From Peptococcaceae bacterium (lineage in GTDB: Bacteria > Bacillota > Desulfitobacteriia > Desulfitobacteriales > Syntrophobotulaceae), in assembly GCA_012839895.1 (NCBI GenBank), contig DUML01000013.1, forward strand, positions 1 through 64,000: a DNA stretch of 64,000 bases. The letters run 5' to 3'. The stretch's first letter is position 1. Each line of letters starts with the position of its first letter. Made by a program: the position numbers and the translations under genes. The notes beneath the pieces were generated by a model, which did not search any database, had not been told where the DNA came from, and saw only the letters and a list, made by a program, of their open reading frames with translations. Of this stretch, positions 2,899-21,340 are shown in pieces.

Positions 2899-3864
2899 CT
2901 AATTCTCCTGTAAAAAAGCCTTTTGCAGCAGCTCTTTCATTTGGGCTGCATCAGAAGTAACCATAAGCTGCTGGCGGAATTGCGCCGCATTCCTGGTTCC
3001 TTTAAGATACCAAGCTGCATGTTTACGCATTTCATTAATTCCTATTTTTTCACCTTTATAGGTTATAACCTTCTCTAAATGCTTTAATACTATAGCCAGC
3101 TTCTCTATAGCGTCCGGTTCAGGCCAAATTTCTCCCGTCTCTAAAAAATGTTGAGTTTTACCGATTAGCCAAGGATTACCCAAAGCCCCCCGAGCGATCA
3201 TTACCCCGTCACAACCTGTTTCCTGCAACATTTTCAAGGCATCAAAAGGTGTCTGGATATCACCGTTGCCAATCACAGGTATTTTAATTTGCTCTTTTAT
3301 CCTGCGAATCCAGCTCCAGTCAGCTTGTCCTGAATAGTATTGTTCCCGGGTACGGGCGTGGAGAGTTAGCATACTTATACCAACAGCTTCCAAGCGGGCT
3401 GCCAAATCCGGGGCAACAATGGAATCACTGTCCCAGCCGAGCCTGAGTTTCGCCGTGACGGGTACATCGACAGCTTTTACAACCTTTGCCGCTATCTCTA
3501 CCGCTAAAGGAATATTCTTAAGCAAAGCGGCGCCTTCTTTATTCTTAACAATTTTAGGTGTAGGGCAGCCCATATTAATATCTATAACATCGGCACCGTA
3601 CGTCACTGCGATGCGGGCCGCTTCAGCCATGACCTCCGGTTCGGAGCCAAAAAGCTGAACAATACGCGGCCTATCTTCCCCGCTTAAATCCAACATTTTA
3701 ATTGTTTTGGAATTATTATAAATTAAGGCCTTATCACTGATCATTTCCGTAAAAGTGTATTTCCCGCCAACGAGACGAATTATTTCCCGGAAAGCTTTAT
3801 CAGTGATTCCGGCCATAGGTGCCATGAAAACAGGTTTAGTGAGTTCAAATTCCCCTAGTTTCAT
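2899..3864 (-). CDS. dusB: tRNA-dihydrouridine synthase DusB
   Basis: FMN- and NADPH-dependent enzyme that reduces uridine to dihydrouridine in the tRNA D-loop. The 321-residue protein is a TIM barrel followed by a helical domain. Visible family signatures are APMAGITDKAFR near the N-terminus, DINMGCPTPKIVKNKEGAAL with the catalytic cysteine around residue 100, and GNGDIQTPFDA in the phosphate-binding part. GGAGG lies 6 bases before the ATG. It belongs to the fol-dus-lys neighbourhood conserved in Firmicutes (yacF in B. subtilis). It ends with TAG, showing that amber is an ordinary stop here. Confidence 0.97.
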   Translation of the reverse strand: MKLGEFELTKPVFMAPMAGITDKAFREIIRLVGGKYTFTEMISDKALIYNNSKTIKMLDLSGEDRPRIVQLFGSEPEVMAEAARIAVTYGADVIDINMGCPTPKIVKNKEGAALLKNIPLAVEIAAKVVKAVDVPVTAKLRLGWDSDSIVAPDLAARLEAVGISMLTLHARTREQYYSGQADWSWIRRIKEQIKIPVIGNGDIQTPFDALKMLQETGCDGVMIARGALGNPWLIGKTQHFLETGEIWPEPDAIEKLAIVLKHLEKVITYKGEKIGINEMRKHAAWYLKGTRNAAQFRQQLMVTSDAAQMKELLQKAFLQEN

Positions 3865-3905
3865 AAGCCTCCAACTTTATTGGGTGTTCTTTTCATGAAT
3901 CAATA

Positions 3906-3930
3906 GCTTCGCTTAAGCTCAGGGTGACAT
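3906..3930 (-). repeat. Dispersed GTCA-CTGAGC-GCGAAG repeat, copy 1
   Basis: The minus strand reads GTCACCCTGAGC, then TTAAGCGAAGC. This is the same short element as at 48639-48666. It lies in the 73-bp space between dusB and coaX. Elements of the type TCATTCTGAGCGNAGCGAAG are common intergenic repeats in many bacterial genomes. Confidence 0.5.
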
Positions 3931-3937
3931 CTCTTGA

Positions 3938-4702
3938 TTAGGTATTTTTCTCATAAATCAGCAGTAACCCTTCTAAAGTTAAGAATGGATCGACTAATTG
4001 GATCATTTCCGAGTCTTCAGCTATTAATTCTGCCAGACCTCCGGTCGCTATTACCTTTGCATTGCTGCCAATTTCTTTCATCATTAATTGGACTATCCTG
4101 TCAACCAGGCCGCAATAACCATAATAAATCCCAGCCTGCATACCGCTGATAGTATTCTTGGCAATAACGCCTTTGGTCTTTGTTATTTCTACCCTGGGCA
4201 ATTTTGAAGCCCTCTGAAACAGGGCTTCGGTGGAAATACCTATACCGGGGGCTATAGCGCCTCCTAAATACTCACCTTTGCCGCTGACAACGCAAAAAGT
4301 AGTAGCGGTACCGAAATCAACGATAATTAATGGCCCGCCGTATTTATTATAAGCGGCTACAGCATTAACAATGCGGTCCGCGCCAACTTCCCGGGGATTG
4401 TCATATACTATGGATATGCCGGTTTTTACCCCTGGGCCCACAACAATAGGTTTTACCCCGAAGTATTTCTTAACCATTTTTTCCAGAGTAGGGGTTAACG
4501 GCGGTACTACAGAGGAAATAATCGCTCCATTTATCCCTTCAAATGTAAGCTGATGAAAGTCAAAAAGGTTTTTGACTTTCATGGCATACTCATCTTCTGT
4601 ACTGAATTTATCGGACTTAATCCTCCAATGATGGATAAGTACCCGTTCTTTATAAACACCAAGCACAATATTGGTATTCCCAACATCAAAGACTAAAATC
4701 AT
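3938..4702 (-). CDS. coaX: Type III pantothenate kinase CoaX
   Basis: Phosphorylates pantothenate, the first step of coenzyme A synthesis. The 254-residue protein has the acetate/sugar kinase-actin fold: phosphate-1 motif [12 protein letters not shown] at the N-terminus, [16 protein letters not shown] near residue 105, and [13 protein letters not shown] near 125. Type III enzymes are usually insensitive to CoA feedback. GGGAGAGG precedes the ATG. It lies 46 bases downstream of nadC, and panC and panD are also in this block, so NAD and CoA precursor genes are grouped. Confidence 0.97.
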
Positions 4703-4748
4703 ACCTAAACCTCTCCCTTAAGCAATCCTGAAGCCGATGCCCTTAGAT

Positions 4749-5627
4749 TTAAGCCTTGTTCCCTTTATTGATTTGTTTTTGAATCGAAGGCTTAGTCTCA
4801 TCCACGACCAAAGAAAAATCTATAGCTTGCACCGAATGAGTAAGCCTGCCTACGGAAATAATATCAACGCCCGTCTCAGCCACAGCCCTGATATTCTCTT
4901 CCCGTATTCCCCCGGAAGCTTCCACTATAGCCCTCTTGTTAATTAATTTAACTGCCGTTCTCATATCCTCTAAGGACATATTATCCAGCATTATAACGTC
5001 TACTCCGCAATTTACAGCTTCCTCAACCTGCTCAAGGGTCTCACATTCCACTTCAATTTTCACCATATGGCCTATTTTCGTCCTAACCCTGCGAACTGCC
5101 TCAGGCAACCCCCCGACTGCGGCATGATGATTATCTTTCAGCATTACTGCATCATAAAGGCCAAAACGGTGGTTACTGCCGCCTCCTACCCGGACGGCAT
5201 ACTTTTGTAAACTTCGCATACCCGGCATAGTTTTACGGGTATCTGTAACCTTAACTTGAAAATCAGCCACTAAGTCTACTAAACGCCTGGTAATGCTGGA
5301 AATACCGGAAAGATGCTGTAAAAAATTCAAAGCGGTCCTTTCCGCTTGCAGAATTCCTGCCAGTGGCCCGTTTATTGTCATAACCAGCATACCGGGAGAG
5401 ATAGGATCCCCGTCCTTGACCTTAAGGTTAACCGTAATCCGGGGATCCACCTTTTTAAAGACCATTTCCACAATTTCCACACCGCAAATAATGCCCTTTT
5501 CTTTAGCAAATAATTTGGCTTCACCCCAATAATCTTCGGGAATTATCAAGGTGCTTAAATCTCCGGTTCCAATATCTTCTTTTAAAGCTCTTTCAACTAA
5601 TTCTTCAAATTGAAACATAGCGAACAT
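4749..5627 (-). CDS. nadC: Nicotinate-nucleotide pyrophosphorylase NadC
   Basis: Converts quinolinate and PRPP to nicotinic acid mononucleotide, the third step of de novo NAD synthesis. The 292-residue length is typical. Signatures are DIGTGDLST near the N-terminus, TALNFLQHLSGI, DTRKTMPGMRSLQKYAVRVG, and GLYDAVMLKDNH for PRPP and quinolinate binding. The start overlaps the end of nadB by 23 bp and has AGAGG upstream, pointing to translational coupling. It is the last nad gene of the nadA-nadB-nadC transcript. Confidence 0.97.
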   Translation of the reverse strand: MFAMFQFEELVERALKEDIGTGDLSTLIIPEDYWGEAKLFAKEKGIICGVEIVEMVFKKVDPRITVNLKVKDGDPISPGMLVMTINGPLAGILQAERTALNFLQHLSGISSITRRLVDLVADFQVKVTDTRKTMPGMRSLQKYAVRVGGGSNHRFGLYDAVMLKDNHHAAVGGLPEAVRRVRTKIGHMVKIEVECETLEQVEEAVNCGVDVIMLDNMSLEDMRTAVKLINKRAIVEASGGIREENIRAVAETGVDIISVGRLTHSVQAIDFSLVVDETKPSIQKQINKGNKA

Positions 5628-10597: not shown

Positions 10598-10655
10598 GGT
10601 GAAGGTGTGTACTTATCTTAAAATAGCCAATTCTAAGGTTTGCTCTGCCTTCACC
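10598..10655 (-). promoter_or_regulatory. Leader inverted repeat upstream of DUF2520 gene
   Basis: GGTGAAGG (10598-10605) and CCTTCACC (10648-10655) are perfect 8-bp complements 42 bases apart, just before the ribosome-binding site. The stretch 10595-10788 has no gene and also holds a TATAAT (10775-10770, minus) without a good -35. A translation-level control element is possible but unproven. Confidence 0.3.
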
Positions 10656-10788
10656 GTCTCAGTAGTTATCCAAGCGGTTAATCCGTTCGCAGCATTTTTA
10701 GGAGTTTATTTGGATTATTCCCTAAAACTACAGTACAATTCCTTTGGATATTGTCCATAGCTCCAATACATTATAAAACAAAAAAACC

Positions 10789-18412: not shown

Positions 18413-20497
18413 TTAGTTTTTCCTGCGGAGAACCAAGACAACCCCGTCATCCACTAAGTTCCCGCCGGCCAACCTGATTGTTTCTTTAATTATATTATCG
18501 GCTAATTCTTGTGCAGAAGCAAGAGGAGAACTTTCCAAGAAAACTTTAAGCCAGTCTTCTTCTTGCTTCCCCACATCTAAAATACCGTCGGTAACTATAA
18601 CTAAAGTTTCGTCCTTGAATTTAACATCCAAGACAGGTATTTCAATATCATTTAAAATCCCGGCCGGTAGACTGGAAGTTTTAAGAATCTCCACCTTACC
18701 CTTTCTTAGCAAATAGGTTGGAGCCGCTCCAATTTTAATTAATTTAGCACTATCCGTTTCCAAATCAATAATGGCCATATCCACAGTCACAAAACTTTCT
18801 TCCGGTGAACGTAAGACTAAAATGGAATTCAAAGCTTTAACTGCTCCTTCCGGTTCAAAGCCCGTACTCAAAAGCTGTTCCAAAATAGTTAAAGCCGCAG
18901 CACTCATTCTGGCCGCTTCCTCGCCGACCCCCATACCATCGCAAACAATTAGGGCGCTTTTATTGGGAGAAAGGGGCACGGAATTAAAGTTATCCCCGCT
19001 GATCCCATTGCCGGTCTTGATAACTGTCCCTACACCAATGTCAAGCTGCAGCCTATGTTGCCGGGACCAAACCAATGGTTTCCCCTCTTCCAGGTTATGT
19101 TTGGAATGAAGCTCTTTGGCCAAATGTCCAATTACTTGAGCAACATGGCGGTACTGGTCAGCTAAAGACTCCCGGTTTAAGGCCAGCCTTTTCTGCCATA
19201 TCTCCCTGTCTTTCTGCTGCTCCAAAATAAACCTTACAGCAATTCTTACTTCCTCCAATTTCCCGCAGTACTTTTTCCATTCGGAGGGAATTATTTCTCC
19301 GGCAGTCTCCGGATTATTCATCTGCTCTTCCTCATAAGCAAACAAGTCATAGATAAAATTATAAGTGCGGTAGAATTCCCTTTCCCAGCAGTAATCAACC
19401 ATAGCGCAGTTTTTGCAAATTCTTCCCACCAAAACATTCATTAGCTCCGGTACTTCCGGTTTTAACTTCGATTCCAGACCTGCGGCCTGAAAACTATAAG
19501 CGAGCTGGTCAAAGATATCCGCTAAAGTCTTAACTTTACTGATGGTTGTCTCAATCTCAGGCATAACCCTCTTTTTAAAAGTAACCTTATCTTTTCTTTT
19601 ACCCGGCAGCACTAAAAACAATAGTAACCCTAAGCCGGCGGAATAAAGATGAGAAGTCAAAAAGCTCTCGTTCACAAAGAAAGTAACCATTAAAACCATA
19701 GAGCTGTAAGCCACTGCTATTCCTACTTTGCCAAAGTTTTGAAACCCGCCGCAAACAAAACCTAACAATCCGTAAATACCGGCATCAAGCAAATTGCCCA
19801 GCCCGAAATCCCATTTCAAAAGAAAACCTAGAATTGCACCGGCGCCGGCTCCCGCGCCCGCACCAAATCTGTCGGAAATAAACAAAATGAAAAAACCTAA
19901 AACAGCTATTTGGCAATTAATCTTACCAAAAGTTAAGCCTTGTAAACCGCTTAAACATACCGCTAAGATTAGGAGCCAAATCATGCCCTGCTCGCTGGTA
20001 AAACTTCCTTTAAGCAGGTTTTCCTTCTGCAGAAAAGCGTGAAAAAAAATTACCGAAAAACCTGCCGCTAAAGTGCTCTGAGCTAATAAAAGGATTAGGG
20101 CTTCTTCGCCAATTCCCGCCGTTAACTGCAAAACCAACAAACCGGGAAAGATAGTGCAAAAAGCGGTAAAAATAGGCAACAGGAAAATTTCCGCTTTATG
20201 ACCCTTAATTCGCGGTAGCAGCAAAACGCACAGCAAACAGGCAGGCAAGACTTCACCAATAACAGCCAGGTTTCGTATGCTTAAAATACCGATAATTATT
20301 CCCAAGAAACCAAAGAAAACTTTTTTATCTTTGTCCAAAGACAATACCGCCATATAGGCAATGGCGAAAGGATAAATCCCTAAAATGTTGGCCCTGGCCA
20401 ACATACTGCCCAATAGAGCAATGAGCAAGCAAACCGGTAAAGAAACCGAAAACTTTTGTAATATTTTTTCCGCTTTAAAAGCAGCCCATTCAGCCAT
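18413..20497 (-). CDS. spoIIE: Stage II sporulation phosphatase SpoIIE
   Basis: Membrane PP2C-type serine phosphatase that dephosphorylates SpoIIAA and so activates sigma-F in the forespore; in Bacillus it also binds FtsZ. The N-terminal ~300 residues hold about ten membrane helices, followed by a cytoplasmic linker with a cysteine cluster (GRICKNCAMVDYCWE) and a C-terminal PP2C domain (IVCDGMGVGEEAARMSA; FVTVDMAIIDLET; VIVTDGILD). About 694 residues, shorter than the ~820 of Bacillus. The ATG at 20497 with GAGGTGG before it is preferred to an ATG six codons upstream. Confidence 0.95.
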   Translation of the reverse strand: MAEWAAFKAEKILQKFSVSLPVCLLIALLGSMLARANILGIYPFAIAYMAVLSLDKDKKVFFGFLGIIIGILSIRNLAVIGEVLPACLLCVLLLPRIKGHKAEIFLLPIFTAFCTIFPGLLVLQLTAGIGEEALILLLAQSTLAAGFSVIFFHAFLQKENLLKGSFTSEQGMIWLLILAVCLSGLQGLTFGKINCQIAVLGFFILFISDRFGAGAGAGAGAILGFLLKWDFGLGNLLDAGIYGLLGFVCGGFQNFGKVGIAVAYSSMVLMVTFFVNESFLTSHLYSAGLGLLLFLVLPGKRKDKVTFKKRVMPEIETTISKVKTLADIFDQLAYSFQAAGLESKLKPEVPELMNVLVGRICKNCAMVDYCWEREFYRTYNFIYDLFAYEEEQMNNPETAGEIIPSEWKKYCGKLEEVRIAVRFILEQQKDREIWQKRLALNRESLADQYRHVAQVIGHLAKELHSKHNLEEGKPLVWSRQHRLQLDIGVGTVIKTGNGISGDNFNSVPLSPNKSALIVCDGMGVGEEAARMSAAALTILEQLLSTGFEPEGAVKALNSILVLRSPEESFVTVDMAIIDLETDSAKLIKIGAAPTYLLRKGKVEILKTSSLPAGILNDIEIPVLDVKFKDETLVIVTDGILDVGKQEEDWLKVFLESSPLASAQELADNIIKETIRLAGGNLVDDGVVLVLRRKN

Positions 20498-20526
20498 AAT
20501 AGCCACCTCTTCCATTTAATGGCAAT

Positions 20527-20560
20527 ATTATAGCCTATCCGGCCTGCGAAGCTTGTCAAA
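20527..20560 (-). promoter_or_regulatory. spoIIE promoter with 21-bp spacer and 0A box
   Basis: On the minus strand TTGACA (20559-20554) and TATAAT (20532-20527) are both perfect but lie 21 bp apart. Such long spacing is the known hallmark of Spo0A-activated sigma-A promoters at spoIIE and spoIIG of Bacillus. CTTGTCAAA on the plus strand (20552-20560) matches eight of nine bases of the 0A-box consensus TTTGTCRAA and overlaps the -35. Confidence 0.7.
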
Positions 20561-20697
20561 CCCAGTAAGACCTTAGAGCCATGATTAGCCCAACTTCTGC
20601 CCAATATGCAGAAGATTATAACGGGACAACACTTTCTTATGGCTTTTTGACAAAAACCGTTTTCTATCGTCGTAAGTTTTTGAGCAGTAATAGTATA

Positions 20698-20869
20698 TTT
20701 TTTGCATTACCCGCTCACCACGCGCCGAAGCTGTTCACTTGCTGCTACAGCTACTGCACCGAAACCTTCGGGTACTATACCCGCTGTGAACCACGGTGCA
20801 GTTTAACGCTGTAGCAGCTGCACTCACGACGCTTCTGTGCTTTAACGGTTCGCTAAGTAATGCAAAAAA
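20698..20869. repeat. 172-bp nested imperfect palindrome
   Basis: Nested complementary arms share roughly one centre: 13 bp (20698-20710 with 20857-20869), 11 bp (20741-20751 with 20808-20818), 9 bp (20753-20761 with 20794-20802) and a 6-bp central stem with a 3-nt loop (20769-20774 with 20778-20783). It fills most of the 510-bp gene-free stretch 20516-21025 between spoIIE and divIC, on the far side of the spoIIE promoter. No convincing coding frame is seen in it. It may be a MITE-like element or a structured RNA. Confidence 0.7.
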
Positions 20870-20879
20870 TGCACATTAA

Positions 20880-20910
20880 AAAAAGATGCCTCCCTAGAAG
20901 ACACCTTCTT
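20880..20910 (-). terminator. Rho-independent terminator after divIC
   Basis: On the minus strand AAGGTGTCTTC pairs (with G-U pairs) with GAGGCATCTT around a short loop, followed by a run of seven T residues. It lies about 115 bases past the divIC stop and ends the yabQ-divIC transcript before spoIIE. Confidence 0.7.
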
Positions 20911-21025
20911 CAATAATTTTCTTCAAATTAATATTTCGTTAAATGCTCTCGGTTTTCAGTAGCACTAATAAGGATAACTGGTATTTGCCAGATGGCCAAA
21001 AAACTGTTTTTCTGTATAAATCCGC

Positions 21026-21340
21026 TTATTCGGAAGGAGCGCTTTCCTTTGGTGCGATTACTATTTCTCCCTTTCTTACTAAACCCAGTTTTTCCCGGGC
21101 CAATTGCTCAATATAACTGGGCGTATTTAGCTTTTCGATTTCCTGGCGAAGCTGGTTGTTAGCGGCCACTAAGTTATTCCTTCGTTCTAATAACTCAACT
21201 TTTTCTTTTTCCATGGATTGATCCAAGAGGAATAATTGATAGGACCAACTCCCGGCCAGCATTAAAGATATACCCATCACAAGGATAAATAAAGGGCTCG
21301 TTTTCCGCTTTCTTTTTCTGCCAGTAACCCGTTTAGTCAT
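21026..21340 (-). CDS. divIC: Septum formation initiator DivIC/FtsB family
   Basis: Small bitopic division protein, 104 residues: basic cytoplasmic tail (MTKRVTGRKRKRKTS), one membrane helix (PLFILVMGISLMLAGSWSYQ, about 16-35), an extracytoplasmic coiled coil (about 42-75) and the family end motif YIEQLAREKLGLVRKGE. It overlaps the upstream small HTH gene by 8 bp. Position between yabQ and spoIIE is the same as in Bacillus. Confidence 0.93.
   Translation of the reverse strand: MTKRVTGRKRKRKTSPLFILVMGISLMLAGSWSYQLFLLDQSMEKEKVELLERRNNLVAANNQLRQEIEKLNTPSYIEQLAREKLGLVRKGEIVIAPKESAPSE

Follow-up and report, generated by a model that had tools for sequence, protein, structure and literature searches.

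Does the long imperfect palindrome between divIC and spoIIE in this Peptococcaceae genome belong to its locus, or is it one copy of something that moves? An earlier note on the window (the whole stretch of 64,000 nt that was analysed) had offered three answers: a miniature inverted-repeat element, a structured small RNA, or a DNA element tied to sporulation or chromosome organisation.

The palindrome and its site

The 172-bp imperfect palindrome was confirmed at 20698-20869. Perfect arms of 14 bp (20697-20710 with 20857-20870), 11 bp (helix 5 in Table 1) and 9 bp (20753-20761 with 20794-20802) shared one common centre, and the apex, as read from the sequence, was closed by the 6-bp pair CGGGTA/TACCCG. 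The arms of 11, 9 and 6 bp noted earlier were thus recovered, while the outer arm measured 14 bp and not 13. Folded as RNA, the 172 nt gave -70.3 kcal/mol on the plus strand (z -7.7) and -74.7 kcal/mol on the minus strand (z -5.6) against dinucleotide shuffles, and none of 200 shuffles reached these energies on either strand, in agreement with the rod-like fold proposed for both strands. No plausible coding frame was found in the palindrome, as the earlier note had judged, and an Rfam search returned zero family matches, relaxed threshold included. The features of the element and its neighbouring terminator are collected in Table 1, where A3 and A4 stand for the alignments of 34 and 102 copies described below.

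Table 1. Features of the hairpin element and the adjoining terminator, in window positions
Feature	Position	Strand	Basis or remark
Whole mobile hairpin element including outer stem	20693..20874	- (strand inferred to fold)	9 full genome copies, most sharing outer stem GTATATTTTTTGCATTAC; site empty in relatives
Helix 1 (outer stem), left arm, pairs 20857-20867	20700..20710		Two-sided changes: 10/11 pairs in A3, 11/11 in A4
Helix 1 (outer stem), right arm	20857..20867		Two-sided changes in A3
Helix 2, left arm, pairs 20847-20853; encloses conserved tandem mismatch (G.A/A.G on -)	20713..20719		Alignments
Helix 2, right arm	20847..20853		Alignments
Helix 4, left arm, pairs 20831-20835	20727..20731		A3
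Helix 4, right arm	20831..20835		A3
Helix 5, left arm, 11 bp, perfect here, pairs 20808-20818	20741..20751		Arm search and A3
Helix 5, right arm	20808..20818		Arm search and A3
Helix 6, left arm, pairs 20795-20801	20754..20760		Arm search and A3
Helix 6, right arm	20795..20801		Arm search and A3
Apical part, conserved order-wide, plus-strand consensus AAACCTCTGGG...TGTGAACC; second palindromic repeat inserted here in other genomes	20761..20794		Copies compared
divIC intrinsic terminator, neighbour outside the element: hairpin GGTGTC/GGCATC then T-run	20877..20913	-	Read from sequence

The palindrome sits in a 510-bp gap between divIC (21026-21340, minus strand) and spoIIE (18413-20515, minus strand). 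It follows directly on the divIC terminator, which was missed by a consensus terminator scan and which stands at the same place after divIC in relatives without the element. The spoIIE promoter lies on the minus strand with TTGACA at 20554-20559, TATAAT at 20527-20532 and a spacer of 21 bp, a spacing which we take to be typical of Spo0A-dependent promoters; its hexamers are conserved in relatives, and the element sits about 134 bp upstream of it. The placement between these two signals given by the earlier note was therefore borne out, and the regulatory region of spoIIE is intact despite the insertion. Upstream of the promoter, TTTTTGACAAAAA at 20644-20656 was seen by eye as a possible Spo0A box.

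In the 16 relatives in which both genes could be placed, the divIC-spoIIE gap measured 244-353 bp in 15 and 524 bp in one, and none of the 16 carried the element. The window copy is therefore a lineage-specific insertion, later than the split from these relatives. The suspected link with sporulation or chromosome organisation was not supported, as other copies stand beside unrelated genes and the same site is empty in relatives. A comparable picture was found at a second site (L326), which across species holds full copies, left-end remnants or an empty gap. At orthologous positions of three related genomes, the element stands singly or as a tandem pair. No uniform target duplication was seen by eye in 16 flanks, and the empty sites of relatives were too diverged for the exact ends or a target duplication to be read. 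Elsewhere in the window, at 10650-10757 on the minus strand, the Rfam pan motif was matched with a score exactly at the gathering threshold.

Copies with a conserved core and variable ends

The search of the genome and its relatives that the earlier note had recommended yielded copies in abundance. The own genome holds nine full copies (88-100% identity) and about nine partial ones, spread over many contigs in both orientations; most share the outer 14-18 bp, and outside the outer stem their flanking sequences show no relation to one another. By blastn the element was found in 12 of 61 genomes, own included; related copies, 73-88% identical, came from further genera of the same family and from one other family of the order. 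A pattern scan named Paradesulfitobacterium ferrireducens, Peptococcaceae bacterium CEB3, Acididesulfobacillus acetoxydans, two Gracilibacter MAGs and several Peptococcaceae MAGs as hosts. Scanned with a covariance model built from 34 copies, 57 of the 74 genomes of the order contained the element, as did 15 of 399 sampled across the phylum, four of these 15 lying outside the class; fuller rescoring of three single genomes gave 45, 39 and 53 matches. A phage or plasmid origin was dropped, as no match was obtained in phage and plasmid collections or in a pattern scan of viral contigs.

Compensatory covariation of the helices, as in a structured RNA of any kind, was present among the copies. In A3, the alignment of 34 copies that was not fitted to the covariance model, 91% of pair cells were standard pairs, and 192 two-sided changes were counted, where shuffles gave 53 and slid partners 19-36. 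In A4, the alignment of 102 distinct copies fitted to the model and therefore leaning towards structure, 90% of pair cells were standard, and 1067 two-sided changes were counted against 289 in shuffled and 131-191 in slid controls, at 40 of the 41 pairs. The helix changes in both alignments were nearly all from one Watson-Crick pair to another. The arms thus stay complementary while their sequence changes, most plainly in the outer stems, which between genomes (e.g. GTATATTTTTTGCATTAC, GGCAAGAATTATTGC, GATATCCGAATATTAC and GCATGAATGAAATGAATTGC) are mutually unrelated and each complementary to their own other arm. What is conserved across the copies is the interior, especially the apex and the mismatched positions between the helices.

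Several asymmetries distinguished the two strands. Within the helices, A.C on the plus strand, equal to G.T on the minus strand, occurred 114 times against 46 for plus-strand G.T; with each pair counted once per genome, G.T was found 82 times on the minus and 45 times on the plus strand (p = 0.001, kinship between genomes still being in the count). At two neighbouring mismatch positions the plus strand has T.C and C.T (in 93 and 88 of 101 copies, respectively), so that the minus strand carries a tandem G.A; of the 39 conserved unpaired residues, 27 are purines when read on the minus strand. These sequence signatures suggest that it is the minus strand that folds. Together with the covariation they fit a folded single strand, whether RNA or DNA, which leaves room for the structured RNA of the earlier note; DNA appears at least as likely as RNA because the share of wobble pairs is low, which would be unusual for an RNA helix.

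How the element may spread

The reading that we favour, with a probability of about 0.55, is a non-autonomous, gene-free mobile hairpin whose folded minus strand would be recognised in trans through its core and apex. A trans-acting enzyme would bind the folded minus strand, as single-stranded DNA or as an RNA copy, through the core and apex instead of through sequence-specific ends, and would copy or move the hairpin, mostly into non-coding gaps downstream of genes. Copies once placed may be amplified in tandem and degrade through deletions of the slippage type. The hairpin may have no host function and be a selfish sequence tolerated beyond terminators, which we suggest with low certainty. 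A broader form of this idea is tentative: a class of mobile DNA defined by its folded core and not by its ends, in which a single strand would be recognised through the apex and tandem G.A internal loops and moved by a putative new enzyme, the ends being free to change and the copies nesting in, or being nested by, other palindromes.

An ordinary MITE, i.e. a deletion derivative of an IS moved in trans by a DDE transposase acting on terminal inverted repeats, is the first rival of the favoured reading. The element is short, non-coding, multi-copy and dispersed like a MITE, and the outer 14-18 bp common to most own-genome copies would suit such an origin. Conserved terminal inverted repeats in common with a transposase-bearing parent were, however, not found: the ends are unrelated between genomes and the interior is conserved, which is the reverse of an ordinary MITE. 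No uniform target duplication was seen by eye. The miniature inverted-repeat element of the earlier note therefore stands as a short, gene-free, dispersed and mobile palindrome, and falls as regards conserved ends. Among the loci examined, neither a transposase-bearing parent sharing the ends of the element nor an autonomous copy was found; no copy had a gene between its arms, the largest central insert being 93 bp.

Two candidate enzymes were set aside by their occurrence. The Y1 (RAYT) domain PF01797 was absent from the element-carrying genomes G000, G005, G003, G027, G161 and G391, several of them element-rich, and present in G010, G021, G038 and G051, where the model found no element. IS1182 had looked likely as a general mobiliser from G012, which we infer to be a Dehalobacter-like genome. 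There, five identical copies of the hairpin are carried by an IS1182-family element, in the stretch that separates its left-end hairpin from its transposase gene (L292, about 3270-5460, and four further near-identical copies of this element); one Gracilibacter copy (G009) also stands some 90 bp upstream of an IS1182-like transposase gene. Both cases would speak for a MITE. The IS1182 transposase was nevertheless absent from the element-rich G005, G027 and G391, matched only below the cut-off in G000, and was abundant in G021, which lacks the element by the model. The IS1182 associations are therefore read as hitch-hiking, and we consider an ordinary MITE unlikely.

A multi-copy regulatory or housekeeping small RNA with a host function would account for the strong covariation, the conserved apex, the purine-rich loops and the tandem G.A on one strand. 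Against it stand the patchy presence of the element (from 0 to more than 50 copies within one order), the lack of a conserved genomic position with the same locus empty in relatives, the few wobble pairs for an RNA helix, and a promoter scan that found none next to the window copy. The orientation of most copies also disagrees with this explanation. At 122 sites, the neighbours of copies between tandem genes ran with the plus strand of the element in 54 cases and with the minus strand in 26; 24 copies lay between convergent genes, only 4 between divergent genes, and a crude ORF call placed 9 within open frames. At most tandem sites the inferred folding strand thus runs counter to the adjacent genes, which argues against a simple read-through RNA. 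These placements otherwise count in favour of the mobile hairpin, apart from the nine copies in open frames, which stand against it. Overall, a small RNA serving the host is improbable.

Targeting of terminators was considered as well. Over 169 sites, terminator-like hairpins were mildly enriched at the plus-strand left end (22 in the nearest bin against 8-16 elsewhere) and not enriched at the opposite end; strict terminator targeting was therefore not retained, although the own-genome copies had shown it clearly by eye. Separately, short hairpins of the form GGGGC.RTTGC...GCAAT.GCCCC followed by T were seen 15-40 bp from many own-genome copies (left flanks of L002, L003, L004, L008, L014, L015 and L016), and represent either a recurrent kind of terminator or a further family of small repeats.

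The covariation itself could arise without recognition of a fold, in that template-switch correction at a cruciform could keep the arms of a dispersed palindrome alike; the compensatory changes would then reflect mutation and not selection. Palindromes are prone to template-switch events, the changes pass almost purely between Watson-Crick pairs with few intermediates, and shortened derivatives with rejoined arms are common, a kind of deletion expected of palindromes. Such correction would, however, erase the mismatched positions between the helices, which persist, and the mismatch types are strand-asymmetric; we give this explanation little chance. The earlier note had foreseen a chance remnant if no other copies existed and the arms diverged without compensation, but copies and compensatory changes were both abundant, nothing was found in favour, and with the folding z-scores a chance palindrome is ruled out for practical purposes.

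Known palindromic repeats and nested copies

The literature searched on palindromic, nested or repeated elements in these bacteria held no description of this family. The element is thus an order-wide family of gene-free mobile hairpins without an Rfam model and without a description in that literature. Palindromic MITE-like repeats have been reviewed, namely ERIC/IRU, YPAL/RU-2, RUP, NEMIS/Correia and the Rickettsia palindromic elements (PMC2229807). Like the present element, these are about 100-200 bp long, gene-free, intergenic, dispersed and palindromic, and an end-to-end fold as found here is predicted for several of them (PMC2229807). By description, the present element is set apart from them in that its core is conserved across the whole order and its outer stems are unrelated and covarying.

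The Bacillus cereus group repeat Bcr1 has a 167-bp model among stem-loop families (PMC2267715). Compared by description, it resembles the element in its similar size, intergenic position and predicted conserved structure. Bcr1 also shows compensatory changes. REP/BIME sequences occur with RAYT (Y1) transposases (PMC2817692, PMC3733652). They are likewise palindromic and intergenic, but are built from units of 20-40 bp, and the Y1 domain is lacking in several genomes rich in the present element. In REP/BIME, the enzyme recognises the folded strand. Integron attC sites are imperfect palindromes as well; they are recognised as a folded single strand, and their sequence is largely free. In attC the stem base holds the conserved boxes, and in the present element the base is the variable part. 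IS1272, of the IS1182 family, has been reported to replace stem-loops by structure, its inverted repeats being recognised in this way without target duplication (PMC5678879). That case shows that recognition by structure exists and does not demonstrate action on the present element, which lies inside or beside IS1182-family elements in two genomes and whose occurrence is not tracked by IS1182.

If recognition through the core is true, it would point to a new recombinase or reverse-transcription route that acts on folded strands throughout an order of anaerobes. That route could then be tested in a large natural data set, in which a genome holds dozens of copies and orthologous sites are full, tandem, remnant or empty. 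At the least, the family is an order-wide repeat that affects the assembly and annotation of these genomes.

Nesting was seen among the copies. In five genomes, a second palindromic repeat of the TTGCCATCCATGGCA type, about 50 bp long, interrupts copies of the hairpin at the apex or close to it; it was located at L090 2591-2644, L066 1575-1625 and L098 2403-2496, and in L099, L194 and L356. Paradesulfitobacterium copies carry further hairpins inside one arm, and in L144 and L161 hairpins within hairpins form compound copies with units flanked by runs of a GGAGTCA-type heptamer. Inverted target duplication as the source of the matching stems, suggested by unit B of Paradesulfitobacterium, was dropped because the 'empty' form is equally explained by deletion between CTTGC repeats.

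Orthologous intergenic arrays from three related genomes (L315, L321 and L322; L312, L314 and L323) differ in how many tandem units they hold, each unit being 220-245 bp long and containing the element. In L312 (2677-4158) an IS3-type element is inserted in a repeat copy, with an apparent ACAAT duplication seen by eye.
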